From a bacterium BMS3Abin02 (GTDB lineage: Bacteria > Actinomycetota > Acidimicrobiia > Spongiisociales > UBA4744): a DNA stretch of 64,000 nt. The notes under the pieces were generated by a model. It ran no database searches. It worked only from the letters and a program-made list of their open reading frames with translations, and was not told the origin of the DNA. This document shows positions 744 through 49,720 of the stretch, piece after piece; the first letter of the stretch is position 1; each line of letters starts with the position of its first letter. A program made the translations under genes and the position numbers. The DNA lies in contig BDSU01000037.1 of the NCBI GenBank assembly GCA_002897675.1, positions 66,399 to 130,398 on the forward strand, in the 5' to 3' direction.

Positions 744-2006
744 ATGAAGTGGGACGACACCATCGACGGAAAGCACCTCCACCCCGAGAGCCTCATGATG
801 AGCTACGGCTACAAGCCAGAGTGGTCCGAAGGCGCGATCAAGAGCCCGATCTTCCAGACCTCGACGTTCGCATTCGAGACCGCGGAGGAGGGAAAGGCAT
901 TCTTCGAGGTCGCCACCGGCAAGCGCCCACCGGCGCCGGGAGAGAAAGTCGGGCTGATCTACAGCCGCCTCAACAATCCGGACCTGGAGATCGCAGAAGA
1001 CCGGCTCTGCCTGTGGGACGGCAGCGAAGACGCACTCCTGTTCAAGAGCGGCATGGCGGCCATCGCCACGACGCTCCTCACCTATCTTCGCCCGGGAGAT
1101 CTCATCCTGCACAGCGAGCCGTTGTATGGCGGCACCGACCACCTCGTGAACATCGTGCTCCCCGAGTTCGGCATCGAATCGGTCGGGTTCTTTCCCGATG
1201 AGACCCGCGACGAGATCCGGCGTCGGGTGACCGAGTCCGGCAACCGCCTCGGCATGATCTTCATCGAGACCCCGGCGAATCCGACGAACGCGCTGTTCGA
1301 CATCGAGGAGTGCGCAGTGGTCGCCAAGGCCGCATCGACACCCGACCGTCCCGTGTCCCTCGTCGTCGACAACACGTTCCTCGGGCCGCTGTTCCAGAAG
1401 CCGCTCGATCACGGCGCAGATCTGGTGATCTACAGCGCGACGAAGTACCTGGGCGGACACAGTGATCTGATCGCGGGGGCCGTGCTCGGCTCGAAGGCCC
1501 TCATCAACCCCGTCCGGGGGATGCGCACGTACCTGGGATCGCATTCCGGGCCCTGGAACGGGTGGCTGCTCATGCGCAGCCTGGAGACACTCTCGTTGCG
1601 CATGCACAGGGAGGCCGACACGGCACGCAAGGTCGCCGACTTCCTCCGCTCGCATCCGAAAGTGAACTACGTCAACTACCTCGGGTACCTCGAGCCCGGG
1701 GATCCCCAGCACGACATCTTCGTCAAACAGTGTCTGGGCGCCGGCGCGATGATCTCCTTCGAGGTACGGGACGGTGAGCCGGGAGCATTCCGATTCCTGA
1801 ACGCCCTGAACCTGATCCACCTCGCGGTCAGTCTCGGCAGCAACGAATCACTGGCGGAACACCCCGGTGCGATGACGCATGCCGGCGTGCCGGACGTGGA
1901 CAAGAAGCGGTACGGAATCACCGAAGGACTGGTCCGCATCTCGGTCGGGGTCGAGCATCCCGATGATCTGATCCTCGACTTGTCGCAGGCGCTCGCCGCC
2001 GTCTGA
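744..2006 (+). CDS. Cystathionine gamma-synthase family PLP enzyme
   Basis: 420-residue fold-type I PLP enzyme of the Cys/Met metabolism family. The PLP lysine is K234 in SATKYLGGHSD, the cofactor-binding Asp is D209 in VVDNTFLGP, and the phosphate-cup region is SGMAAIATTL near residue 102. The canonical YSRxxNPT is YSRLNNPD here, as in a subfamily simply called 'cystathionine gamma-synthase family protein', so the exact reaction (gamma-synthase, gamma-lyase or O-acetylhomoserine sulfhydrylase) cannot be fixed. It should act in the cytoplasm in transsulfuration or methionine metabolism. The ATG follows a GAGAGGAG ribosome-binding site. It stands alone; no other sulfur gene adjoins it. Confidence 0.9.
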   Translation: MKWDDTIDGKHLHPESLMMSYGYKPEWSEGAIKSPIFQTSTFAFETAEEGKAFFEVATGKRPPAPGEKVGLIYSRLNNPDLEIAEDRLCLWDGSEDALLFKSGMAAIATTLLTYLRPGDLILHSEPLYGGTDHLVNIVLPEFGIESVGFFPDETRDEIRRRVTESGNRLGMIFIETPANPTNALFDIEECAVVAKAASTPDRPVSLVVDNTFLGPLFQKPLDHGADLVIYSATKYLGGHSDLIAGAVLGSKALINPVRGMRTYLGSHSGPWNGWLLMRSLETLSLRMHREADTARKVADFLRSHPKVNYVNYLGYLEPGDPQHDIFVKQCLGAGAMISFEVRDGEPGAFRFLNALNLIHLAVSLGSNESLAEHPGAMTHAGVPDVDKKRYGITEGLVRISVGVEHPDDLILDLSQALAAV

Positions 2007-2078
2007 CCCGACCGGGTTGACGGCCGCACGCGCACCTCGCTCGGCGCTAGCCTGCCATTGCCGAGCACAGGAGAGGGA

Positions 2079-4256
2079 ATGGCAGCGTTGACTCCCGCGT
2101 ATGAAGGTCTCCCAGACGAGGAGTACCGGCGCAGGATCAAGGCATGGACCCTCTACGACTGGGCGAACTCCGCGTTCGCCACGACGATTCTCGCCGCAGT
2201 GCTGCCCGCCTACTACAGCTCCGTTGCGGGAGCGACCCTTCCGAGCGCTGCAGTCGCCACCGCGTATTGGACGACGACTCTCAGCATCTCGCTGATCATC
2301 GTCGCCTTTCTGGCCCCCGTGCTCGGCACGATCGCCGATGTGATGCGGGGCAAGAAGAAGTTCCTTTCGATCTTCGTCGGCATGGGAGTCGTCGGCACGG
2401 GGCTCCTGTTTCTCATCACGACCGGCGATTGGATCCTCGCATCGGTGTTCTTCATCCTCGGACGGGTCGGATTCGCCGGTGCCAACGTCTTCTACGATGC
2501 CCTGCTGCCACACGTTGCCCGTCCCGAAGACCAGGACGTGGTCTCGACGCGAGGCTATGCGATCGGCTATCTCGGAGGCGGACTGCTCCTCGCCGTGAAC
2601 GTGGTCATGATCTTTGTGCTCGGCTCGGAGATAGGGGCCAGGCTTTCGTTCGTCTCCGTGGCCATCTGGTGGGCGGTCTTCTCGATTCCGCTGTTCCGCC
2701 GTGTGCCCGAGCCTCCATCGGCCTCTGTTCCGCGCGAGCGGGGAACGAGCATCACCACAGCCAGCCTGAAGCGACTCGGAACGACATTCCAGCACCTTCG
2801 CAAGTACCGTCAGCTCTTCCGATTCCTGGTGGCGTTCCTCATCTACAACGACGGGATCGGAACGATCATCAGCGTCGCCGTGATCTACGGAACCGAGCTG
2901 GGATTCAAAACCACCGAGCTGGTCCTCGCCATCCTGCTCGTGCAATTCGTGGGCATCCCCTTCAGCCTGATCTTTGGCAGGATCCCCGGCCGCAAGGATG
3001 CCAACCGGGCCTTCTACCTGGCCTTCATCGTGTTCAACATCGTGGCCCTTCCACTCGTAGGTGCCATCGGGGCGAGAGTCCTCCCCGCCGACACGACCGG
3101 AGCCCCTCCCGCCGCCTACGAGACCATCGGCACTGCACTGGGAGAGGGCAGCTACGGGATCGAGGCGATCACGCTCGACGGCAGCTGGACCGAGATTCCC
3201 GCCGAGACGGTCGGGGACGCGACACAGGGACTCACCAGGGTCGCCGAGACAGCGGCACCCATCCTGCTGCTCATCGGCTTGATCGCTCTCGTCGCGGCGT
3301 GGGTGCTGGGCATCAGGCGGCGAAGGAATCCGGCTTCCAGCCTTTGGAGCGTCCTCACCCCGGTGCTCATCGGGATCGCCGCACTGCTCATTGCCGCCCT
3401 CGCCGAGCTTCTGGTGTTGACGGCTTCGGATCCGATTCCCTACTCCGCCGCCACAGACTCCTCGTCCACGGCGACGTTCGCCTTCAACGGCCAGCGAGTC
3501 GAGATCATCCACAGCACCGGGCCCGACCTGGGCGTTTGGACCGTGTCGATCGACGGGCGACCACTCATCGAGGACGGCAAGCCGGTGACCATCGACGCGA
3601 CGACCCGCACGGTGCGATACGGGGCGCCGGTGACCATCGACGCCGGCACCCCCGGGACGCACGAACTGACACTGAGCGCCTCCGGCAACGGGCGACTCGC
3701 CATCGGAGAGATCAAGGTCCTTGCCCCGCTGCGGACGAGCAACCTCGGTGTGATCCTCGGCCTGATCCTCGTGATCGAGATTCTCGGACTCGCCCTCTCC
3801 TCCCTGTTCGGCAAGGCTCTGTTCTCGAAGCTCGCAGACGCGATGACCACGAAGCGGGCGATCATCCTTGCGGTCGGTGCATACGCGATCATCGCCGTGT
3901 GGGGTTTCTTCCTCAACGCCATCTTCGAGTTCTGGTTCCTCGCATGGATGGTGGCGGTGGTGCAGGGCGGAAGCCAGGCGCTCAGCCGAAGCATGTACGC
4001 ATCGATGTCTCCTGCGTATGAGAGCGGCGAGTTCTTCGGGTTCTTCTCGGTCATGTCGAAGTTCTCTTCGATTCTCGGCCCGGTCGTCTTCGCAGGTGCC
4101 GTGGCCATCACCGGCAGCAGCCGGCCCGCGGTCCTGAGCCTGGTGTTGTTCTTCGTCGTCGGCATCGCAATCCTCGTGACCGTCGACGTCGATGAAGGGC
4201 ACAGGATCGCCGTGGAGGCGGATGCCGCGATCGAGCGGGGCGCAGCCGACGCCTGA
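2079..4256 (+). CDS. UMF1-family MFS permease with a 250-residue insertion
   Basis: 725-residue membrane protein. The N-terminal KAWTLYDWANSAFATTI and the later VQGGSQALSRSMYA segments are signatures of the UMF1/Atg22-like major facilitator family, whose members are usually 400-450 residues. The core seems to be residues 1-330 plus 575-725. Between them is an insertion with two hydrophobic helices (about 392-411 and 427-449), a beta-rich soluble stretch (about 455-550) and another helix (555-578). ATG 2079 was chosen over an upstream TTG at 2058 because AGGAGAGGG lies directly before it. The substrate is unknown. The family is inferred to export small molecules or drugs. A second, normal-length UMF1-like gene lies at 14890. 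Confidence 0.85.
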   Translation: MAALTPAYEGLPDEEYRRRIKAWTLYDWANSAFATTILAAVLPAYYSSVAGATLPSAAVATAYWTTTLSISLIIVAFLAPVLGTIADVMRGKKKFLSIFVGMGVVGTGLLFLITTGDWILASVFFILGRVGFAGANVFYDALLPHVARPEDQDVVSTRGYAIGYLGGGLLLAVNVVMIFVLGSEIGARLSFVSVAIWWAVFSIPLFRRVPEPPSASVPRERGTSITTASLKRLGTTFQHLRKYRQLFRFLVAFLIYNDGIGTIISVAVIYGTELGFKTTELVLAILLVQFVGIPFSLIFGRIPGRKDANRAFYLAFIVFNIVALPLVGAIGARVLPADTTGAPPAAYETIGTALGEGSYGIEAITLDGSWTEIPAETVGDATQGLTRVAETAAPILLLIGLIALVAAWVLGIRRRRNPASSLWSVLTPVLIGIAALLIAALAELLVLTASDPIPYSAATDSSSTATFAFNGQRVEIIHSTGPDLGVWTVSIDGRPLIEDGKPVTIDATTRTVRYGAPVTIDAGTPGTHELTLSASGNGRLAIGEIKVLAPLRTSNLGVILGLILVIEILGLALSSLFGKALFSKLADAMTTKRAIILAVGAYAIIAVWGFFLNAIFEFWFLAWMVAVVQGGSQALSRSMYASMSPAYESGEFFGFFSVMSKFSSILGPVVFAGAVAITGSSRPAVLSLVLFFVVGIAILVTVDVDEGHRIAVEADAAIERGAADA

Positions 4257-4330: not shown

Positions 4331-4714
4331 GTGACACCCGATCCCGACCCGGACACCAACGAGACGCCCCCACAGCCGGGAACCGAACCGGCCCGTTCGC
4401 AGGGCGAGCCGGTCGTACCAGAAGGGCAACCGGCCCAGAAGAAGGTCTACGTCGGCGCAGGAGTGTCGTGGGCGATCATCTTCGGTGCCCTGTTGATCGT
4501 GGCAGTCGCCGTCCTCGGCGCCCTCAACACGGCTCCGGTTCCGCTCAACCTGATCTTCTGGAAGGGCGACGTCCCCCTCATCTCGATCATCCTCGGCGTC
4601 GCCGCCGTCACGGTGGTCATCGATGAACTGGTCGGTTTGATCTTTCGCCTGCGCCGTCGCCGCCGGCTGCGTCAGAGGAACAAACTGAAGGAGCTCGAGA
4701 AAGGCGCACGATGA
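4331..4714 (+). CDS. LapA-domain (DUF1049-like) small membrane protein
   Basis: 127 residues. A Pro/Glu-rich cytoplasmic N-terminus (1-38) is followed by two membrane helices (about 44-65 and 78-100) around a short NTAPVPLNLIFWKGDVPL segment, then a basic tail rich in Arg and Lys. That helix-NxxxVxxxxxFW-helix pattern is typical of the LapA/DUF1049 family, which in E. coli is linked to LPS assembly; in Actinomycetota the role is unknown. The GTG start follows AAAGGAG. Its TGA overlaps the ATG of the next gene (ATGA), so the two are probably cotranscribed. Confidence 0.75.
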   Translation: MTPDPDPDTNETPPQPGTEPARSQGEPVVPEGQPAQKKVYVGAGVSWAIIFGALLIVAVAVLGALNTAPVPLNLIFWKGDVPLISIILGVAAVTVVIDELVGLIFRLRRRRRLRQRNKLKELEKGAR

Positions 4715-6066
4715 GCCGGCTCATCGTCGTCGGTGGTGATGCCGCCGGCATGTCCGGAGCGAGCCAGGCCCGGCGGATGGACCCCGGCCTCGACATCGTC
4801 GTCTTCGAGCGAACACACTGGGTGAGCTATGCGGCATGCGGCATCCCCTACTACGTGGGCGGTGATGTCGAAGAGTTGCGGCAACTCCAGGCCAGAACAC
4901 CTGAGCAGTTCGCCACGATGGGCATCGACGTGCGGCTTGGCCAGGAAGTCACGGCGATCAACGTTTCCGCCAGGAGCATCCGAGTCCGCGATCTCGAGGC
5001 CGGCACGGACGCCGAGTTCGCATACGACCTGCTCCTGTATGCGACCGGGGCAAGGCCTCTGCTCCCACCGATCGAAGGTCTGGATCTCGACGGCGTCTAC
5101 CAGGTTCGCACGCTCGACGATGCCCGGAGCCTCCGGTCCGCGCTCGAGGCACCGCCGCGCAATGCAGTCGTGATCGGGGGCGGTTACATCGGACTCGAGG
5201 TCGCGGAGGCCTTCCACAACCTGCACATACCGGTCACCGTCTTCGAGATGGCGCCAACGGTTCTCTCACGCACGATGGACCCCGAGATGGGAGAACTCGT
5301 GGCCTCCAAGGTGCGGGCGCTCGGTATCGAGATCCACACCGGCACCCCGGTGGACGCCGTGATCGGAGAGAACGGCCGCGTCGTCGCCGTCGAGGGCTCC
5401 GGAACGACCTACCCGGCCGACATCGTCGCACTCGGCCTGGGCTCGATACCGAACGCCGCACTGGCCGACGCATCGGGCATCCCTCTCGGTCCCACGGGCG
5501 GCGTTGCCGTCGACGATCACCAGCAGACCGGCGCCGACGGGGTCTACGCGGCAGGCGACTGCACAGAGGCAATCCACCGGGTCACGGGCAATCCGGTGAA
5601 TCTTCATCTCGGTACGGTTGCGAACAAGCAGGGCCGTGTCGCGGGAACCAACCTGGGAGGCGGCAGCGCAACCTTCCCCGGCGTTCTCGGGACCGCCATC
5701 ACGAAAGTGGTCGACATCGAGATCGCCAGAACGGGTCTCACGCTTTCGGAAGCAGCCGATGCGGGCATCGATGCGGTGGCCGCGGGGTTGCGCAGTTCAA
5801 CAGCAGCAGGTTATTGGCCGATGTCGACCTCCATGAGGATTCGCACCGTGGTCGAACGCCGTTCGGGCAGACTGCTGGGTGCCCAGATCGTGGGAGGTCC
5901 CGGTGCAGGCAAGCGCATCGACACCTTCGCCACGGCCCTGTGGGCCGGGATGACCGCAGACGAGCTGGAGTACGTCGACTTGTCCTACTCGCCGCCGTTC
6001 TCAGGAGTGTGGGACCCGGCCAACGTCGCTGCGCGCAAAGCTCGTCGAGCTGCCGCGAGGCAGTAG
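4711..6066 (+). CDS. CoA-disulfide reductase-like FAD/NAD(P) oxidoreductase
   Basis: 451-residue flavoprotein of the pyridine nucleotide-disulfide family. An N-terminal FAD Rossmann motif (VVGGDAAGMS, about 6-15) is followed by the single active-site Cys, C43 in SYAACGIPYY, typical of CoA-disulfide reductases, NADH oxidases and persulfide reductases. A second Rossmann motif (VVIGGGYIGLEVAE, about 152-165) binds NAD(P)H, and VYAAGDCTE (about 283) is the second FAD contact. No rhodanese domain is fused at the C-terminus. Likely role: redox homeostasis of low-molecular-weight thiols or oxygen-consuming NADH oxidation. The start ATG overlaps the upstream stop. Confidence 0.85.
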   Translation: MSRLIVVGGDAAGMSGASQARRMDPGLDIVVFERTHWVSYAACGIPYYVGGDVEELRQLQARTPEQFATMGIDVRLGQEVTAINVSARSIRVRDLEAGTDAEFAYDLLLYATGARPLLPPIEGLDLDGVYQVRTLDDARSLRSALEAPPRNAVVIGGGYIGLEVAEAFHNLHIPVTVFEMAPTVLSRTMDPEMGELVASKVRALGIEIHTGTPVDAVIGENGRVVAVEGSGTTYPADIVALGLGSIPNAALADASGIPLGPTGGVAVDDHQQTGADGVYAAGDCTEAIHRVTGNPVNLHLGTVANKQGRVAGTNLGGGSATFPGVLGTAITKVVDIEIARTGLTLSEAADAGIDAVAAGLRSSTAAGYWPMSTSMRIRTVVERRSGRLLGAQIVGGPGAGKRIDTFATALWAGMTADELEYVDLSYSPPFSGVWDPANVAARKARRAAARQ

Positions 6067-7040: not shown

Positions 7041-7811
7041 TCAGGCCCAGAACTCCCTGAGGGCGTCGCCGACCTGCCCAGGGGCTTCCACGGGCGTCAG
7101 GTGCCCTGCTCCGGGGATCGTGACCAGTGTGGAGTCCGGTATCAGCGCCGCCATCGCTTCGGCGACCGTCGGCGGCGTCAGCCGATCCTCCTGACCGACC
7201 AGCACCAGGGTCGGGACGGTGATGGTCGCAAGGAGGCCGGTACGGTCGGGTCTGCGAGCCATGCCCTCGAGCGCAGCTACGACCGTCTCGGGAGCCGTCG
7301 ACTCGATCATGCCTCGCAGTCGTGCTCGCGCAACGACCGAGGCGTCCGGAGCGAGCAGCGCGCCTGCCAGACCATCCACCAGGGAACCCGTGCCCCTGTC
7401 TGCGACCTGCTCGGCCATGAGTCTTCGCCCCTCCCTCCCTTCGTCGCTGTCCTCGCCCGATCTCGTGTCGAGCAACGACAGCGAGCGGATCACGTGCGGA
7501 TGTCGCTCCCACAGTGCAAGCGCCACGTACCCGCCCATGGACAGCGCAACGACGTCTGCCTGCCGGTTGCCGATGAACTCGGCGAGGTCGTCTGCGAGCC
7601 GGCTCATCGTCAGTACCCGATCGCGCAGCGGATCAGACCTGCCGAACCCGGGGAGATCGAGCGCGACACATCGTCGCACCGGCGACAAAGCCTCCACCTG
7701 ATCCAGCCACATCCGATGGTCGAGAGGAAACCCGTGGACGAACACGGCGAGGGGACCCTGCCCTCGTTCATGGAAGGCGAGCGATTGCCCTCCGATGTCT
7801 CGATACTGCAT
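7041..7811 (-). CDS. Alpha/beta-hydrolase
   Basis: 256-residue single-domain alpha/beta hydrolase. The oxyanion segment HGFPLDHRMW is at 26-35, the nucleophile elbow ALSMGGY places Ser91, the acid is probably the Asp in VLVGQEDRLTPP near 212, and the catalytic His is in PGAGHLTPVE near 240. All three positions are present, so it should be active. It resembles 3-oxoadipate enol-lactonase/esterase-like enzymes, but the substrate cannot be read from sequence. It is divergent from the nuclease lipoprotein gene at 7854 with only about 40 bp between them, so their promoters must overlap. Confidence 0.85.
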   Translation of the reverse strand: MQYRDIGGQSLAFHERGQGPLAVFVHGFPLDHRMWLDQVEALSPVRRCVALDLPGFGRSDPLRDRVLTMSRLADDLAEFIGNRQADVVALSMGGYVALALWERHPHVIRSLSLLDTRSGEDSDEGREGRRLMAEQVADRGTGSLVDGLAGALLAPDASVVARARLRGMIESTAPETVVAALEGMARRPDRTGLLATITVPTLVLVGQEDRLTPPTVAEAMAALIPDSTLVTIPGAGHLTPVEAPGQVGDALREFWA

Positions 7812-7853
7812 ACGACCACGATACTGTCACCCGCGACTCTTACCATCGTGGCC

Positions 7854-8663
7854 ATGAGAAAAATGCTCATGCCGATCCTGCTCGTGCTGGTGGCGTGCAC
7901 CGCACAGCAGGGAGCGACCGTCCTTCGTGTCATCGACGGCGACACTCTGATCGTCCGACAACAAGGAGAGGAGATCACGGTCCGGCTGATCGGCGTCAAT
8001 GCTCCGGAACACGACGAGTGCTACGGATCCCAGGCGACCCAAGCGCTTCGTCACATGGTCGATGGGCGAACGGTGATCCTGGTCACCGACACAGAGACCT
8101 TCGACCAATACGGTCGGCTTCTCGCGTACGTCTACGTGGATGGTGAACTCACCAATCAAAGCCTCGTCGAGAACGGTTTCGCGCTGGCACGGCCCTATCC
8201 TCCCAACACCGCCCGTCAACGCGATCTCGAGCAGGCGATGCAGCTTGCCAGAGCAGAGCACACCGGCATGTGGGCCCCTTCGGCCTGTGGGACGGAACCG
8301 TCGGCGGTCATCGACATCGGCCGAATCTCGTTCGATCCTCCGGGACCCGACGGCCAGCGCCTCAATCAGGAGACCGTGACATTCGACAACAATCAGGAGT
8401 CACCCGTCGACCTCTCAGGATGGACCCTCAGAGACGGTTCCAGCGTTCACCGGTTCGTGTTCCCGGCCGGCTTCGAGCTTCTTCCGGGTGCCGGTGTCAC
8501 CGTGCACACCGGCTGTGGGCGAGACAGCTCCAAAGACCTCTACTGGTGCGCCGACGGTCCGATCTGGAACAACGAAGGCGACGTGGTCATCCTGTCCGAC
8601 GATTCGGGAGCACTCGTCTCTTCCATCACGTATTCTTCACGGTACAACCCGAGAGGAGAATGA
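7854..8663 (+). CDS. Thermonuclease-like lipoprotein with lamin-tail domain
   Basis: 269 residues. A lipoprotein signal ends at LVAC (Cys15). Residues about 21-140 are a staphylococcal-nuclease fold with the catalytic set present: Arg44 (VRLIGV), Glu52 (NAPE) and Arg88 (DQYGRLLAYV). After a short linker, about 150-265 form an Ig-like lamin-tail domain (VDLSGWTLRDG ... NNEGDVVILSD), often found on secreted nucleases and thought to aid DNA or surface binding. It should be a membrane-anchored extracellular nuclease cutting DNA/RNA for nutrient use or biofilm turnover. The start has no strong ribosome-binding site. The gene ends 1 bp before the next ATG. Confidence 0.85.
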   Translation: MRKMLMPILLVLVACTAQQGATVLRVIDGDTLIVRQQGEEITVRLIGVNAPEHDECYGSQATQALRHMVDGRTVILVTDTETFDQYGRLLAYVYVDGELTNQSLVENGFALARPYPPNTARQRDLEQAMQLARAEHTGMWAPSACGTEPSAVIDIGRISFDPPGPDGQRLNQETVTFDNNQESPVDLSGWTLRDGSSVHRFVFPAGFELLPGAGVTVHTGCGRDSSKDLYWCADGPIWNNEGDVVILSDDSGALVSSITYSSRYNPRGE

Positions 8664-13762: not shown

Positions 13763-14842
13763 ATGACGGGCGCGACTGCCAAGGCGATGCTGCTGGTCGA
13801 GCCGCAACGTTTCAGCGCGACGTCATTCGCGATCCCTGAGGTCGAAGCCGGCGGATGGCTCGCGATCGAAGCGACGGGAGTCAGCGGATCCGACGTCCAG
13901 ATCTGGCAAGGGACGAACCGGTTCATGCGTTACCCGCTCATTCCCGGCCACGAGATCGTCGGGCGGATCGCGTCGGTCGTCGATGAAGCCTTCAATATCC
14001 CCATCGGAACGCGTGTTGTCGTGGAGTCGACGATCCGATGTGGAGCCTGCCGTCGCTGCTTGAGCGGACTTCACTCCTGCGCGTTCCGCAAACCGATCAA
14101 CGCCTACGGGCGGCTTCCGTCGACTGAACCACCGAGCCTGTGGGGAGGATTCGCGGAGTTTCTCTATCTCGATCCCGGAGCGCGGCTCCATCCGATCAGC
14201 GACAATATCCAGGCACCCGTTGCGACCTTCACTCATGCCCTCGCCGACGGGTTCACCTGGACCGTGGAGACCCCCGCCCTTCGAGCCGAGGACAGTGTCC
14301 TGATCCTGGGACCCGGCCCTCGTGGCCTCGCCGCGCTCATCGCGGCGAAAGAGGCGGGAGCCGGTTGGGTCGGCATCAGTGGCCTCACCGAAGACAGCGA
14401 TCGACTCACCCTCGCCAAGGAGCTCGGAGCCGACATGGTCGTCGACGCACGCAAGGCAGATGTGGCCGGATCGGTCGCTGACAGCCTCGGAGCCCGCCCC
14501 GAAGTGGTTCTGGACGTGACGAGGGACGATCCGGATGCCATTCACACGGCCCTCGACCTGGTCCGCTCCGGAGGCACGGTGGTGATCGCTTCGATCAAAG
14601 GCGTGCGCGCCGTCAATCAGCTCTTCTCGGACATCATCGTGCTCAAGGAGCTCAACGTCCGGGGAGCCTTCGGGGCCAGCTCCGCCGGCTATCACTGGGC
14701 GGCCCAGCACCTCGAGAAGGACCCCCGCTTGGACAAGCTCGTCAGCCACGAGTTCCCACTCGACGAGGCGGAACGGGCCATCGAGGCGGCCGCCGGCCTT
14801 CTCGGACATGAGGAGCTCATCGCAGTGGCAGTGACGTTCTGA
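13763..14842 (+). CDS. Zinc-type alcohol dehydrogenase (MDR) lacking first Zn ligand
   Basis: 359-residue medium-chain dehydrogenase/reductase. GHEIVG (62-67) and four Cys at 93, 96, 99 and 106 (structural zinc) are present, and the Rossmann segment is LILGPGPRGLAALIAA. The first catalytic-zinc ligand, normally Cys in GxCGTD/GxCGSD, is Ser41 here (GVSGSDVQIWQG). The enzyme may bind zinc differently, use Ser, or not need zinc. Substrate unknown. The ATG follows AAGGAGGAG. It lies 43 bp downstream of the aminotransferase on the same strand. Confidence 0.85.
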   Translation: MTGATAKAMLLVEPQRFSATSFAIPEVEAGGWLAIEATGVSGSDVQIWQGTNRFMRYPLIPGHEIVGRIASVVDEAFNIPIGTRVVVESTIRCGACRRCLSGLHSCAFRKPINAYGRLPSTEPPSLWGGFAEFLYLDPGARLHPISDNIQAPVATFTHALADGFTWTVETPALRAEDSVLILGPGPRGLAALIAAKEAGAGWVGISGLTEDSDRLTLAKELGADMVVDARKADVAGSVADSLGARPEVVLDVTRDDPDAIHTALDLVRSGGTVVIASIKGVRAVNQLFSDIIVLKELNVRGAFGASSAGYHWAAQHLEKDPRLDKLVSHEFPLDEAERAIEAAAGLLGHEELIAVAVTF

Positions 14843-14889
14843 TCGTCAGGTCCCGGATACCGGGACCCGTTGCGTTACAGTCGCCATTC

Positions 14890-16098
14890 ATGGACACCTG
14901 GACACCGACACGCTCCAGCACGATCTCATGGGTGCTGTATGACCTGGCCAACACGATCTTCGCATTGGCGGTCGGAAGCCGGTACTTCTCCGTCTGGGTC
15001 GTCAGGGACCAGGGCGCGACCGATGCCCACTTCGGGTACGCGACCGCCATTGCGATGGTGATCGTCATCACCCTCGCCCCGTGGATAGGGGCGCGCTCGG
15101 ATCATGTGGGGAGGCGGAAACCCGCGTTGATCGTGGCCACGATCGTCACGGTCGGAGCGACCGCACTGCTGACGACCGTCGGCCTGTATCCGTCGCTGGC
15201 ACTGTACATCGTCGGACAGATCGGCTTCACTCTGGGCAGCGTCGTGTACGACGCGATGCTCCCCGACGTCAGCACAGAGCAGAACCGGGGGCGGGTCTCC
15301 GGGCTCGGTGTCGGAGTTGGATATGTCGGCTCGTTCATCGCCATCGGGACCGGCATGATCATGCTCGAGAAGTTCGGATACGGGCCGCTGTTTCGGACCC
15401 TGGCGGCACTGTTCCTGCTGTTTGCGCTCCCCGCGTTCTTCTTCGTGAAGGAGCGGCCCAGGGCTCGTCGAGACGACCAGCCGCCGCGGTTCATCGACTC
15501 CCTGCAACACCTCATCCACGCCTGGCAACGGGCCCGCCAATTCCCCGGAGTGACTCGATTCCTCATCGGACGGTTCCTCTACGCAGACGCTGCCAACACC
15601 GCGTTTCTGTTCGTCTCCATCTTCGCCATCACCGAGATGGGATTCACCGATCGTCAGACCGACCTTCTCGCTCTGGCAGCCATCGTCTCGGCGGTGCTCG
15701 GCTCGCTGCTCGCAGGACGAATCGTGGACGTGATCGGACCGCGAAAGGTACTCCACGGTGCGATCTACACATGGAGCGCGGCGGTCGCCGTTGCAGTGTT
15801 CGCAGCCACGAGCGGCCACACCTCTTTCGGATGGCTCGTCGGCGTGCTCGGCGGCGCCGCCGCAGGCGCGACCTGGACGTCCGATCGCGTCTACATGGCG
15901 AGGCTCTCCCCTCCGGAGCACTACGGCGAGTTCTACGGACTGTATGCGACGGTCGGCAGGTTCGCGACGCTGCTCGGCCCGCTGGTGTGGGCTTTCGTCA
16001 CCGTTACGCTCGGGTGGGGTCGGGTCGTTGCGATCGCCACTCTCCTTCTGTTCTTCGCCTCGTCGCGTGTGATCCTCGCTGGGGTGACAGACCGGTAG
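14890..16098 (+). CDS. UMF1-family MFS transporter
   Basis: 402-residue polytopic protein. The N-terminal STISWVLYDLANTIFAL is the UMF1-type signature, shared with the gene at 2079, but this one has the normal length with about 12 predicted helices and no insertion. APWIGARSDHVGRRKP is the MFS loop 2-3 motif. Substrate unknown. It follows the dehydrogenase gene by 47 bp on the same strand and may be cotranscribed. Confidence 0.85.
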   Translation: MDTWTPTRSSTISWVLYDLANTIFALAVGSRYFSVWVVRDQGATDAHFGYATAIAMVIVITLAPWIGARSDHVGRRKPALIVATIVTVGATALLTTVGLYPSLALYIVGQIGFTLGSVVYDAMLPDVSTEQNRGRVSGLGVGVGYVGSFIAIGTGMIMLEKFGYGPLFRTLAALFLLFALPAFFFVKERPRARRDDQPPRFIDSLQHLIHAWQRARQFPGVTRFLIGRFLYADAANTAFLFVSIFAITEMGFTDRQTDLLALAAIVSAVLGSLLAGRIVDVIGPRKVLHGAIYTWSAAVAVAVFAATSGHTSFGWLVGVLGGAAAGATWTSDRVYMARLSPPEHYGEFYGLYATVGRFATLLGPLVWAFVTVTLGWGRVVAIATLLLFFASSRVILAGVTDR

Positions 16099-16130
16099 AG
16101 ACAATCAGGACGACGAGGTCTCGTGGGCTC

Positions 16131-17087
16131 CTACCGCTCCACGAGCGTGTCGGTGGCGAGTTCGTAGTTGAGTACCTCTTCGACCGCGTAGGGATCGGGG
16201 AGGTCCTCTACGACGGCGATCTGACGGGCGAGGCGTCGGCCGATCTCGGCGAACCAGAGGTCGTTCGGTATCGACCATGGCCACCGGTGCAGACCATTTC
16301 GGGCGCCGACGACCGCACCGACGAGCGGAGCCACGTGCTCCGCGTGAGCGACGACCCCTGCGGCCTCGCGCACGACGACTGCCGCCTGCTCGAATCCTGG
16401 TGAGGAGAGCGCTACCACCATCGCCGTGACCTCGACCTCCGCGTCCTCGACGCCCCACGACATGACGGCAACGGATACATCCCTTGCCGAACGTCCGACG
16501 AGGTCGGGTACTCGCAGGAGAACATCCGAAACCGCCGTGGATCGATCGATGAATCGCTCGGCCTGTGCGGCAGTCTCTATCGCCCCGTTGACGAGGTCCC
16601 AACCCGTCTGCCCATAGCCTGCCGCTGCCACGGCACCCGCGATCACGCAGGAACTGACCGCCGACTCCGGGCGCGTGTGCGTTGCCCTCGCGCTCTCGAT
16701 TGCCGTGGTGATCAAGCCATCCGCATCCTTGCGAAACCACACACCGACCGGTACCGCCCGGATGGCCGCGCCGGCATTGCGAAAGGGCATCGCCGTCGAG
16801 GGTCCCCGCTGGGACTCCTCGAGGAAGGCCGTGAACCACGAATCGGGCGACCGGTAGACGCTCGACCGGCCATCCTGCGGATAGGCGAACTCGAGCAGGT
16901 TCGCCGCGAAGGTCTCCCCGTCGACGGCCTGTGCCCGCATCAGGTGGTACGCGGTCAGGACCATCTGTTGAACACCGAACCCGTAGGCGCGACGGGTCCC
17001 AGACACGAGTAGCTCCCCGGCGGCCGCTCCAAGCAGCGCGCCTTCGCCACCCGCCTCGTACGTGGCGGTATGGCGTGACATTTCCAT
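16131..17087 (-). CDS. ADP-ribosylglycohydrolase-fold protein without metal ligands
   Basis: 318 residues. The overall pattern is of the ADP-ribosylglycohydrolase (ARH/DraG) family: GALLGAAAGE (17-25), AMPFRNAGAAIRAVPVGVW (99-117) and THTRPESAVSSCVIAGAVAAA (137-156). The N-terminal TDDT metal motif is replaced by GFGV (about 36-39), and the C-terminal GDxDT motif by an AHAEHV segment (247-252). With both di-metal sites gone, hydrolase activity is unlikely; it may be a binding or regulatory pseudoenzyme. Start ATG 17087; ATG 17081 is an alternative. It is divergent from the lipid kinase gene. Confidence 0.7.
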   Translation of the reverse strand: MEMSRHTATYEAGGEGALLGAAAGELLVSGTRRAYGFGVQQMVLTAYHLMRAQAVDGETFAANLLEFAYPQDGRSSVYRSPDSWFTAFLEESQRGPSTAMPFRNAGAAIRAVPVGVWFRKDADGLITTAIESARATHTRPESAVSSCVIAGAVAAAGYGQTGWDLVNGAIETAAQAERFIDRSTAVSDVLLRVPDLVGRSARDVSVAVMSWGVEDAEVEVTAMVVALSSPGFEQAAVVVREAAGVVAHAEHVAPLVGAVVGARNGLHRWPWSIPNDLWFAEIGRRLARQIAVVEDLPDPYAVEEVLNYELATDTLVER

Positions 17088-17173
17088 ACTTGGAGCTATC
17101 GGACGACTGCCTGTCACCCTTGAGAGGAAGCGCGGGCGGGATCGCAGACCGGGAACGTCGTTACCCTTCACCT

Positions 17174-18109
17174 GTGCGTTCCCTCCTCTTGATTGCGAAC
17201 CCGGCTGCATCCCGCTTCACCGGCGGCCTCCACCGCTCCGTCGTGCTCCGGCTGTCGAGGGCCTACGAGGTCGAGACCGTGTGGCCGACGAGTGCCGGCG
17301 AGGTGGAGGCCCGGGCCTTGCAGGCCGCCCACGACGGAGTCGACATCGTCGCGGCGATGGGTGGGGACGGTGTGGTACACCACGTCGTGAACGGGATCTG
17401 CGACACGCGAGCGACACTCGGCATCATCCCGGCAGGGACGACCAACGTGCTCGCGAGAATCCTCGGCATCCCGGCTCGTCCCGGGCGCGCTGCCGCATAC
17501 CTCGCCTCCGGACCGCCCGCCATCTACGCTCCCCTCGCCCAAATCTCGCTCGACACCGGCGCCGGCACGACCGTTCGATACGCGACGTTTGCCACCGGTG
17601 TCGGCTTCGACGCAGAGGCCGTGAGGGTCTCCAACCTCGAGCCGTACCGCAAGTACTGGTTTGGCGGGATCCACTACGCGCGATCCGCCGTCGGGGTCGT
17701 CCTCTCGCGCGACAATCGGCAGCCGCCGAACATGCGCGTCGACGACGGAGAGCGTTCGGTGAACGCGGCCGCGGTGTTGGTCCAGGTCCACGACCCGTAC
17801 ACGTATTTCGGTAGAGTTCCCCTCCGTGTCTCTCGTCGCCCCCACACCGGTCTCGCCGCGTTGCTGGTCGAGCGACTGACGTTGCCGCGTATCCCCGCGA
17901 TCCTGGCGGCGGCGATCACCGGCAGGAACCTGGAACGAATCCCCGGTGTGCATGTCTGGGAGGACGTACGGCAGATCGACGTGCATGCGGAGCCCCCGTC
18001 TCCCCTTCAGGCGGACGGGGAACTCCTCGGTGCCGTCGACTCGGTCCGGTTCTCGGCTCGACCTCGCGGTCTGCGGGTCGTCGCGCCGACTGCGCCGGTC
18101 AACGAGTAG
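17174..18109 (+). CDS. Diacylglycerol/lipid kinase family protein
   Basis: 311 residues, YegS/DgkB-like DAGK catalytic domain. IANPAASRFTGG is the N-terminal strand/turn, AAMGGDGVVHHVVNG (about 62-76) is the GGDG nucleotide-binding motif, and GIIPAGTTNVLAR (about 83-95) is the second conserved motif. QADGELLGA near the C-terminus matches the conserved DGE motif. It phosphorylates a lipid such as diacylglycerol at the membrane face. The start is GTG 17174 with no clear ribosome-binding site. It is convergent with the gene at 18110. Confidence 0.88.
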   Translation: MRSLLLIANPAASRFTGGLHRSVVLRLSRAYEVETVWPTSAGEVEARALQAAHDGVDIVAAMGGDGVVHHVVNGICDTRATLGIIPAGTTNVLARILGIPARPGRAAAYLASGPPAIYAPLAQISLDTGAGTTVRYATFATGVGFDAEAVRVSNLEPYRKYWFGGIHYARSAVGVVLSRDNRQPPNMRVDDGERSVNAAAVLVQVHDPYTYFGRVPLRVSRRPHTGLAALLVERLTLPRIPAILAAAITGRNLERIPGVHVWEDVRQIDVHAEPPSPLQADGELLGAVDSVRFSARPRGLRVVAPTAPVNE

Positions 18110-34980: not shown

Positions 34981-35056
34981 TGGTAGCCCCGACCAGATTC
35001 GAACTGGCGTTACCGGCTTGAGAGGCCGGCGTCCTAGGCCGCTAGACGACGGGGCC
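34981..35056 (-). tRNA. tRNA-Glu(CTC)
   Basis: 76 nt including an encoded CCA. The cloverleaf folds: a 7-bp acceptor with a G-U pair at position 1-72, anticodon stem CCGGC/GCCGG and loop CTCTCAA giving anticodon CTC, and a TTCGAAT T-loop. It lies after tRNA-Gln on the same strand. Confidence 0.95.
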
Positions 35057-35080
35057 GAGCGCGGCGAAAGCATCGCTCGG

Positions 35081-35152
35081 CTCGGGGGGAAGGACTCGAA
35101 CCCTCAATGACAGGACCAGAACCTGCTGTGTTGCCAATTACACCACCCCCGA
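35081..35152 (-). tRNA. tRNA-Gln(CTG)
   Basis: 72 nt, no encoded CCA. Acceptor TCGGGGG/CCCCCGA with discriminator G; anticodon stem GCAGG/CCTGT with loop TTCTGGT gives anticodon CTG; T-loop TTCGAGT. It precedes tRNA-Glu(CTC) by 24 bp. Confidence 0.95.
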
Positions 35153-49642: not shown

Positions 49643-49693
49643 CGTGGTAGCCCCGACCAGATTCGAACTGGCGTTACCGGCTTGAAAGGCCGG
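49643..49693. repeat. attR: 51-bp direct repeat within tRNA-Glu(TTC)
   Basis: Exact partner of 42466-42516. It covers the tRNA from the anticodon arm to the CCA end plus two bases. Confidence 0.9.
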
Positions 49694-49720
49694 CGTCCTA
49701 GGCCGCTGGACGACGGGGCC
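49645..49720 (-). tRNA. tRNA-Glu(TTC)
   Basis: 76 nt including CCA. The anticodon loop CTTTCAA gives anticodon TTC; acceptor GGCCCCG/CGGGGCT; T-loop TTCGAAT. It differs from the CTC isoacceptor at 34981 only at the anticodon and one other base. The island is inserted at its 3' half, which is kept intact by the element's own copy. Confidence 0.95.

Follow-up and report, generated by a model that had tools for sequence, protein, structure and literature searches.

A UMF1/Atg22-family carrier from an acidimicrobial genome with an extra helix pair, a predicted outward jelly roll and, nested within it, a predicted transmembrane hairpin

Carriers of the UMF1/Atg22 family (PF11700; Transporter Classification 2.A.1.24) belong to the major facilitator superfamily (MFS) and have 12 transmembrane (TM) helices. 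Yeast Atg22 carries out the vacuolar efflux of leucine and other amino acids, according to the available text of PMC9959203. A stretch of 64,000 nucleotides from the bacterium BMS3Abin02 (contig BDSU01000037.1, positions 66,399 to 130,398; hereafter the window) encodes at 2079-4256 a carrier that is homologous to UMF1/Atg22 across the whole 12-helix core and shares its conserved motifs, but is predicted to contain 16 TM helices. The loop between TM8 and TM9 (loop 8/9) holds an added helix pair and a predicted jelly roll, and the jelly roll in turn holds a nested TM hairpin.

Several described proteins resemble parts of this arrangement. Mammalian PepT1 and PepT2, which may be the nearest functional parallel, also have an outward beta domain inserted in the C-terminal bundle of an MFS fold. 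In PepT1/2 the insertion lies between TM9 and TM10 and consists of two immunoglobulin-like folds, whereas the window carrier has its insertion in loop 8/9, with a jelly roll and two plus two TM helices. Transport by PepT1/2 suffers no appreciable loss when the extracellular domain is deleted, and this domain binds trypsin, as described in the accessible portion of PMC4597091. The jelly-roll fold itself is that of CBM35, CBM36 and CBM6 (carbohydrate-binding modules, CBMs), of the N-terminal jelly rolls of CE2 and of the C-terminal domain of mycobacterial DipZ, with Z scores of about 10-15; unlike these domains, the window jelly roll is split by a TM hairpin and falls below sequence cut-offs. 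DipZ is also a membrane protein bearing such a domain. SV2A combines an MFS core with an extracytoplasmic domain, and its luminal domain is located between TM7 and TM8. It is the top match to the whole window model (Z 31.4, 409 aligned residues, root mean square deviation (rmsd) 3.3), a match of the common core only. The MFS exporters with 14 transmembrane segments that serve here for comparison are presumably of the DHA2 type. In such exporters the two extra helices are central and are believed to come from intragenic duplication (PMC6780985, in the text available), whereas the window carrier has its extra pair at TM8-TM9, on either side of a folded domain. UMF1 carriers, 14-TM MFS proteins with extra helices of presumed duplicate origin and extracellular domains inserted in MFS proteins are already known. 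Searches of the open-licence literature on UMF1/Atg22, and on MFS proteins with a carbohydrate-binding module, a domain insertion or a jelly roll, found no description of this architecture, and within that literature the combination, the loop 8/9 site and the TM hairpin nested in a jelly roll are apparently new.

The carrier gene is a single open frame in the reading of the window, with an ATG start and 725 codons. PF11700 matches the product in three stretches at 230.7 bits (cut-off, 24.1), which upholds the preliminary assignment of the product to the UMF1 family. All twelve MFS core helices are present in order, as judged by coverage with a hidden Markov model (HMM) of canonical relatives, by the AlphaFold helices and by the core columns, and the core motifs are retained (39 invariant columns across 55 canonical and extended rows of the alignment). 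An antisense frame of 784 amino acids (1848-4202) and frames at 299-1201 and 2144-4021 are taken as high-GC shadow frames and not as genes. The parts of the carrier, and a second UMF1-family gene of the window that acts as an internal control, are as follows, with the evidence for each in brackets.

2079-4256, + strand: UMF1/Atg22-family carrier gene with nested insert, 725 amino acids, ATG start, 16 predicted TM helices
2115-2702, + strand: N-terminal half, TM1-TM6, residues 13-208 (AlphaFold helices; canonical HMM over residues 14-324)
2808-2987, + strand: TM7 and TM8a, residues 244-303, TM8a in place of canonical TM8 (AlphaFold; position-specific scoring matrix, PSSM)
2973-3005, + strand: first copy of loop 8/9, FGRIPGRKDAN, residues 299-309 (motif; profile comparison)
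3006-3080, + strand: TM9a, extra helix weakly like TM9b, residues 310-334 (AlphaFold; PSSM; profile comparison)
3081-3227, + strand: predicted outward jelly roll, part 1, strands 1-3 and a short helix, residues 335-383 (AlphaFold; strands as in the hairpin-free domain model)
3228-3419, + strand: predicted TM hairpin nested in the jelly roll, residues 384-447 (AlphaFold confidence 68-81; loop charges)
3420-3743, + strand: remainder of the jelly roll, predicted CBM35/CBM6/CE2-like fold, residues 448-555 (AlphaFold; fold comparison)
3744-3839, + strand: TM8b, extra TM8-like helix holding the second, FGK motif, residues 556-587 (AlphaFold; PSSM; profile comparison)
3849-4184, + strand: TM9b-TM12, residues 591-702, TM9b in place of canonical TM9 (HMM; AlphaFold; PSSM)
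14890-16098, + strand: UMF1-family paralogue without the insert, 402 amino acids (PF11700 scan; alignment)

The extra residues are inserted in the C-terminal half of the carrier, at the cytoplasmic loop 8/9. The window protein has 282 residues at an interval where 52 of 52 aligned canonical relatives, and the 402-residue paralogue, have none; in MAFFT alignments the canonical members pass directly from TM8 to TM9. An HMM of the 52 canonical relatives aligns residues 14-324 with model positions 9-324 and residues 559-718 with positions 281-435, and model positions 281-324, which represent TM8-loop-TM9, are covered twice. The inserted module was earlier put at 250 residues with three additional helices, between the two halves of the carrier. 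The insertion is real, but it amounts to about 280 residues with four extra helices, and the HMM, the alignment and the PSSM place it in loop 8/9 and not between the halves. The same description had an FGR-type motif on both sides of the insert, and this is correct (FGRIPG at residue 299, FGKALF at residue 577); the two occurrences correspond to the two copies of loop 8/9 that the probable duplication would have left. Two other family matches to the insert were rejected. The LPXTG anchor model TIGR01167 scores 16.0 against a cut-off of 15.9 with the insert alone and 14.0 with the whole protein, owing to a hydrophobic stretch together with RRRR, and no LPXTG precedes residue 391. DUF2919 reaches 19.0 bits against a cut-off of 27.2.

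AlphaFold models the window protein, aligned with 55 rows, at a predicted local distance difference test score (pLDDT) of 91.6 and a predicted template modelling score of 0.87. The order in the model is TM1-TM8, TM9a (310-334), strands (357-373), two helices (384-416 and 422-447), strands (455-547), TM8b (556-587) and TM9b-TM12. Ten-residue mean pLDDT is about 92-97 in the strand regions and 68-81 over residues 381-450. The beta-rich domain of the preliminary description is thus found in the model, but its first three strands precede the hairpin, which is therefore nested in the domain and does not stand before it. Lysine and arginine account for 22 of the 144 cytoplasmic residues in loops shorter than 60 residues and for 2 of the 89 outward ones; the jelly-roll loop, with 109 residues of which 8 are lysine or arginine, is excluded from the sum. 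The sixteen predicted TM helices agree with the positive-inside rule and the jelly roll is predicted to face outward. An extracytoplasmic position had been proposed before and is supported by the HMM site, the model and the fold comparison; a binding or partner role for the outward domain is possible. Compared with the Protein Data Bank (PDB), the whole model matches SV2A, MCT1, MelB and other MFS proteins over the core, with Z of about 28-31 among the matches listed.

The fold of the outward domain is best seen in a hairpin-free relative. Relatives from families f2, f7 and f8 of the window's order lack the hairpin and have both beta parts contiguous. The domain of one hairpin-free form (L058), folded alone, reaches a pLDDT of 94.1, and its model matches a glycosyl hydrolase ancillary domain (3nqh; Z 14.9, rmsd 2.1, 116 aligned residues), a CE2 esterase (2waa; Z 12.7), MiXBM (7ehg; Z 12.2), CBM35 (2w3j, Z 11.3; others about 11), CBM36 and CBM6 (about 10-11) and DipZ (2hyx; Z 10.2). 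Among the matches listed there is no immunoglobulin-fold entry, the top matches being jelly rolls of CBMs and glycosidases, and the outward domain is predicted to be a jelly roll of CBM35/CBM6/CE2-like fold. Many of these alignments begin at domain residue 18-19, which indicates that the strands ahead of the hairpin are part of the fold, with the hairpin nested within it. In the models the hairpin appears to be inserted between the third and fourth strands. Loci L063-L067, L076 and some others have an insertion of 8-13 residues at the site of the TM hairpin of the window lineage, as if insertions were tolerated at this position. Among eight hairpin forms the core is 85% identical, and the hairpin and jelly-roll parts are 50-59% identical; these parts change more rapidly than the core.

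The same kind of jelly roll also occurs in other proteins, probably secreted ones. Relatives lie in other large proteins (L049, L050, L188, L190, with many further matches in the phylum), and the matches of the beta profile in genomes G149 and G297 are non-UMF1 proteins. The L188 protein, a 699-residue frame with a jelly roll of this kind, resembles a flagellar cap protein, presumably FliD, by eye. Open frames of 7162 and 7182 residues on two contigs (G716:C9 and G730:C8; genomes of 1.4 and 1.3 Mb) have seven and six jelly-roll profile matches, respectively, and are perhaps giant surface proteins. A search of the PDB by sequence with the domain profile gave E values of 0.0064 or worse, which are not trusted.

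Relatives that preserve different stages of this architecture are found in many genomes. A search for the insert in other proteins, as the preliminary description had suggested, matched 14 of 29 genomes including the window's own, so that the insert is neither a product of chance nor an assembly error. Eight of the 14 have the hairpin, all from families f1 and f4 of the window's order, and six lack it. Among 296 genomes of the class, 24 had a match to a beta profile, again counting the window's own and including the two non-UMF1 cases. Across the phylum, a second profile gave matches in 63 of 396 genomes; UMF1 forms were recognised in the window genome, G005, G018 and G1020 (two matches, one read), the rest being partly examined. 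A scan of genome contigs, from which the best 80 of 582 stretches encoding a relative were taken, gave 86 matched frames. Seven partial or broken frames were dropped (L110 and L083 twice each, L087, L080, L077), which left 52 canonical and 27 extended frames, 79 in all. The 27 extended forms comprise one with the hairpin (L057, from a metagenome-assembled genome (MAG) of Acidimicrobiia, 78% identical to the window carrier), 24 with a jelly roll and no hairpin (mostly Chloroflexota, some Actinomycetota and one Spirochaetales MAG) and two without a jelly roll (L078, L096). In the class of the L096 genome, 103 of 396 genomes were matched, 14 of them by a one-piece match across both added helices without a jelly roll (in G498 only to query residue 76); these 14 include later losses (L153, L154) and some fragments. 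Of 30 frames, five spanning 600 query residues or fewer were dropped (L150 and L155 twice each, L160). Of viral contigs, 59 stretches matched a pattern and none encodes a relative. The surviving stages are the 12-TM canonical form, the 14-TM form without a jelly roll, the 14-TM form with a jelly roll and the 16-TM form. Adjacent pairs of long UMF1 genes are found at L060, L068 and L182 (G010), on G017:C106 and at G1020:C130:37747-40221, where heteromers or a division of labour are possible; at L060 and L068 one of the paired copies is on a long branch of its own in the 96-row tree described below.

The added helices show some likeness, weak in TM9a, to the core helices TM8 and TM9. Over 41 long forms, the mean PSSM score against canonical TM8 is +41.7 for TM8a, -14.1 for TM8b, the next, and -26.5 or lower for the other helices; against canonical TM9 it is +30.1 for TM9b, -22.7 for TM9a and -20.8 for TM3. 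TM8a and TM9b are, by sequence, the true equivalents of canonical TM8 and TM9. The shuffle z averages 1.9 for TM9a and 3.4 for TM8b. Profile comparison in register gives 81% for TM8b with TM8a (E 1.2e-5) and 52% for TM9a with TM9b (1.4e-4), versus 0.1% and 3.4% out of register, and 89-91% for the whole pairs (TM8a-TM9a with TM8b-TM9b). Comparison with non-overlapping helix pairs gives less than 4% for both, with the exception of TM8b-TM9b against TM11-12. TM9a and TM8b are alike across all extended groups (96.6-98.2%). The two extra helices are likely, though not proven, to have arisen by internal duplication of TM8-loop-TM9.

Trees of the core columns were built with quick, short IQ-TREE searches, and the supports of the second are read as splits. 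In the 96-row tree the jelly-roll forms and L078 form one clade (Shimodaira-Hasegawa-like approximate likelihood ratio support 100), as do the eight hairpin forms (97). The 117-row tree, which leaves out the in-window paralogue and the long-branch rows L048_G227, L112 and L126, joins six beta-less 14-TM proteins (100) to the jelly-roll clade (97) with support 99. Within the jelly-roll clade, the partners of L078 are two jelly-roll rows (92), and L153 and L154 have a single such row as partner (94). These placements imply at least two losses of the jelly roll with retention of the added helices, one in L078 and one in L153 and L154, at forks of moderate support, and the losses would be consistent with a dispensable domain like that of PepT. 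The three proteins are natural deletion mutants for the jelly roll in which both added helices are present. A single origin of all extended forms is favoured by the sequence data but not shown: holding all 67 extended rows together scores 24.2 log units better than the quick tree, with a p value of 0.793 in the approximately unbiased test.

We propose, with reasonable but by no means full confidence, that the window protein is an alternating-access UMF1/Atg22 carrier with a duplicated TM8-TM9, an accessory outward jelly roll with a nested hairpin and an amino-acid-like cargo. The 12-helix core is intact and its motifs are kept, so that ordinary alternating access would be expected. TM8-loop-TM9 would have been duplicated within the gene, with TM8a and TM9b keeping the core positions, and the spare helices TM9a and TM8b would hold an outward loop in which a CBM-like jelly roll came to be inserted. 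Later, in the window lineage, the third and fourth strands of the jelly roll would have been separated by the entry of a TM hairpin, which would give the domain two additional anchor points in the membrane. Since the jelly roll was lost repeatedly, evolves faster than the core and has a parallel in PepT1/2, it may be an accessory docking or anchoring domain, for a cell-wall glycan or a partner protein, situated beside the transport path and serving neither as a gate nor as a substrate site; with its CBM-like fold, a sugar would be the first candidate ligand. The neighbouring genes, described below, together with amino-acid efflux by Atg22 would point to a cargo of amino-acid type, which might belong to sulfur amino-acid or thiol metabolism. 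On this proposal the carrier would be a bacterial case of a compact transporter that gained an extracytoplasmic domain, helix pair first and folded domain later, the added pair making an outward loop without upsetting the topology. A membrane hairpin amid a soluble jelly roll is an unusual nesting for structure prediction and annotation. The living stages can be expressed and compared, and the natural losses make the contribution of the outer domain directly testable.

Several observations weigh against this proposal or parts of it. TM9a is no nearer to canonical TM9 than TM3 is by PSSM, the likeness of the two pairs is undetectable (1.2%) in the six-row basal 14-TM group, and TM8b-TM9b is also 55.7% like TM11-12 in profile comparison; these three results leave the duplication likely but uncertain. 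The beta-less 14-TM proteins L096, L147, L148 and L149 (100) fall with eight canonical rows (94), and seven weaker one-piece candidates for 14-TM forms turned out to be canonical. The pLDDT of the hairpin region is below that of the rest of the insert, and in the alignment used for prediction this region is covered by two rows only, the window and L057. The jelly roll of the window insert, like those of 15 domain members scanned singly, stays below the cut-off of every Pfam family. The best scores of the 15 are Thioredoxin_10 (the DipZ-type domain) 23.8 versus 27.1, CE2_N 20.5 versus 27.9 and CBM_6 16.2 versus 28.9; the window insert gives 12.3 to 14.8 bits with CE2_N (cut-off, 27.9), and in a scan of an eight-member domain alignment (A3) CE2_N was matched in seven of eight members and CBM_6 in one of eight. 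Sugar binding is thus without sequence support, and the domain is CBM-like in fold but not filed as a CBM. UMF1 is entered as 'unknown' in a transporter survey (PMC3924187, in the text available). Around the other extended forms, at the loci from the genome-contig scan, no common theme emerged among the 71 of 78 neighbour frames scanned, the commonest being a ubiE methyltransferase (4 of 71).

The weak likeness of TM9a, the lack of such likeness in the six-row basal group and the resemblance of TM8b-TM9b to TM11-12 would also suit a single foreign module, consisting of TM9a, the jelly roll and TM8b, that entered loop 8/9 without any duplication, and MAFFT sets the insert cleanly between canonical TM8 and TM9. 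We regard such an origin as unlikely, though deserving attention: the in-register likenesses stand far above the out-of-register ones, TM8b ranks second only to TM8a in mean score against canonical TM8, and the sister group of the jelly-roll clade has both helices and no domain. That the long form is an ordinary long family without a true insertion, or an assembly artefact, is next to impossible. The preliminary description had allowed for family members of the same length with no clear insertion, and seven further proteins are indeed about as long as the window carrier; the insertion is nevertheless clear against the 52 canonical relatives and the in-window paralogue, intermediates without the hairpin and without the beta domain form graded steps, and many separate genomes share the insert.

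Other explanations concern what the outward domain does. It might be a carbohydrate-binding or substrate-capture module that feeds a glycan or glycoconjugate to the carrier, the cargo then being the ligand of the domain. The fold matches are dominated by CBM35, CBM36, CBM6 and ancillary domains of esterases and glycosidases, related domains are present elsewhere among the proteins of the phylum, and the sugar carrier MelB is among the whole-model matches (Z 30.8). We nonetheless consider this role rather improbable, as no CBM family passed its cut-off in the members scanned and function is not shown by fold alone, some relatives lost the domain yet kept the carrier, and the MelB match is level with those of many other MFS carriers. 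An elaboration of the nesting in three stages, in which the helix pair came first, then a jelly roll that reads glycans and then a hairpin that couples ligand occupancy to the carrier, seems quite improbable; if true, it would make an MFS carrier that is regulated from outside by the cell envelope. It is also very improbable that the extended form is mainly a receptor or scaffold whose MFS core holds the outer domain in the membrane and serves it as a conformational switch. Paired long copies in some genomes (G010, G017, G1020) would permit a division of labour, and the top whole-model match, SV2A, has a luminal domain on an MFS core, and its endogenous substrates are still to be identified (PMC12663137, in the portion available). 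However, the 39 invariant core columns in 55 rows and the 85% core identity of the hairpin forms argue against a core released from transport, and the match to SV2A reflects the MFS core that the two proteins share.

The genes around the carrier are conserved next to the hairpin forms.

744-2006, + strand: cystathionine gamma-synthase family enzyme dependent on pyridoxal phosphate, upstream of the carrier (NF005455, 561 bits versus 504)
4331-4714, + strand: LapA-domain membrane protein (lapA), downstream, kept beside hairpin forms (family scan)
4711-6066, + strand: CoA-disulfide-reductase-like flavoprotein, downstream (listed NCBIfam models below cut-offs)

The upstream enzyme gene and the carrier gene are 72 bp apart on the same strand. 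The order of cystathionine-gamma-synthase-family gene, carrier, lapA and CoA-disulfide-reductase-like gene is found at seven of seven hairpin loci (the window, L057 and L175-L179; the eighth hairpin form, from G021, is outside this set), the last gene being cut by the sequence end in L057 and L179. None of five hairpin-free loci (L180-L184) has the cystathionine-gamma-synthase-family, lapA or reductase neighbours. An alpha/beta hydrolase is present in four of these five and also near the window carrier. The conserved neighbours weakly suggest a link to sulfur amino-acid or thiol metabolism.

Other features of the window are these.

7101-8663, + strand: staphylococcal-nuclease and lamin-tail domains in one frame (family scan)
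34981-35152 and 49645-49720, - strand: tRNA-Glu(CTC), tRNA-Gln(CTG) and tRNA-Glu(TTC)

No further Rfam family reaches its gathering threshold in the 64-kb window. The 7101-8663 frame has matches near the carrier in several relatives; its N-terminal part overlaps a hydrolase gene on the opposite strand and is probably non-coding. The short UMF1 paralogue adjoins genes for a zinc alcohol dehydrogenase and an ADP-ribosylglycohydrolase-family protein (window 13763-17210).

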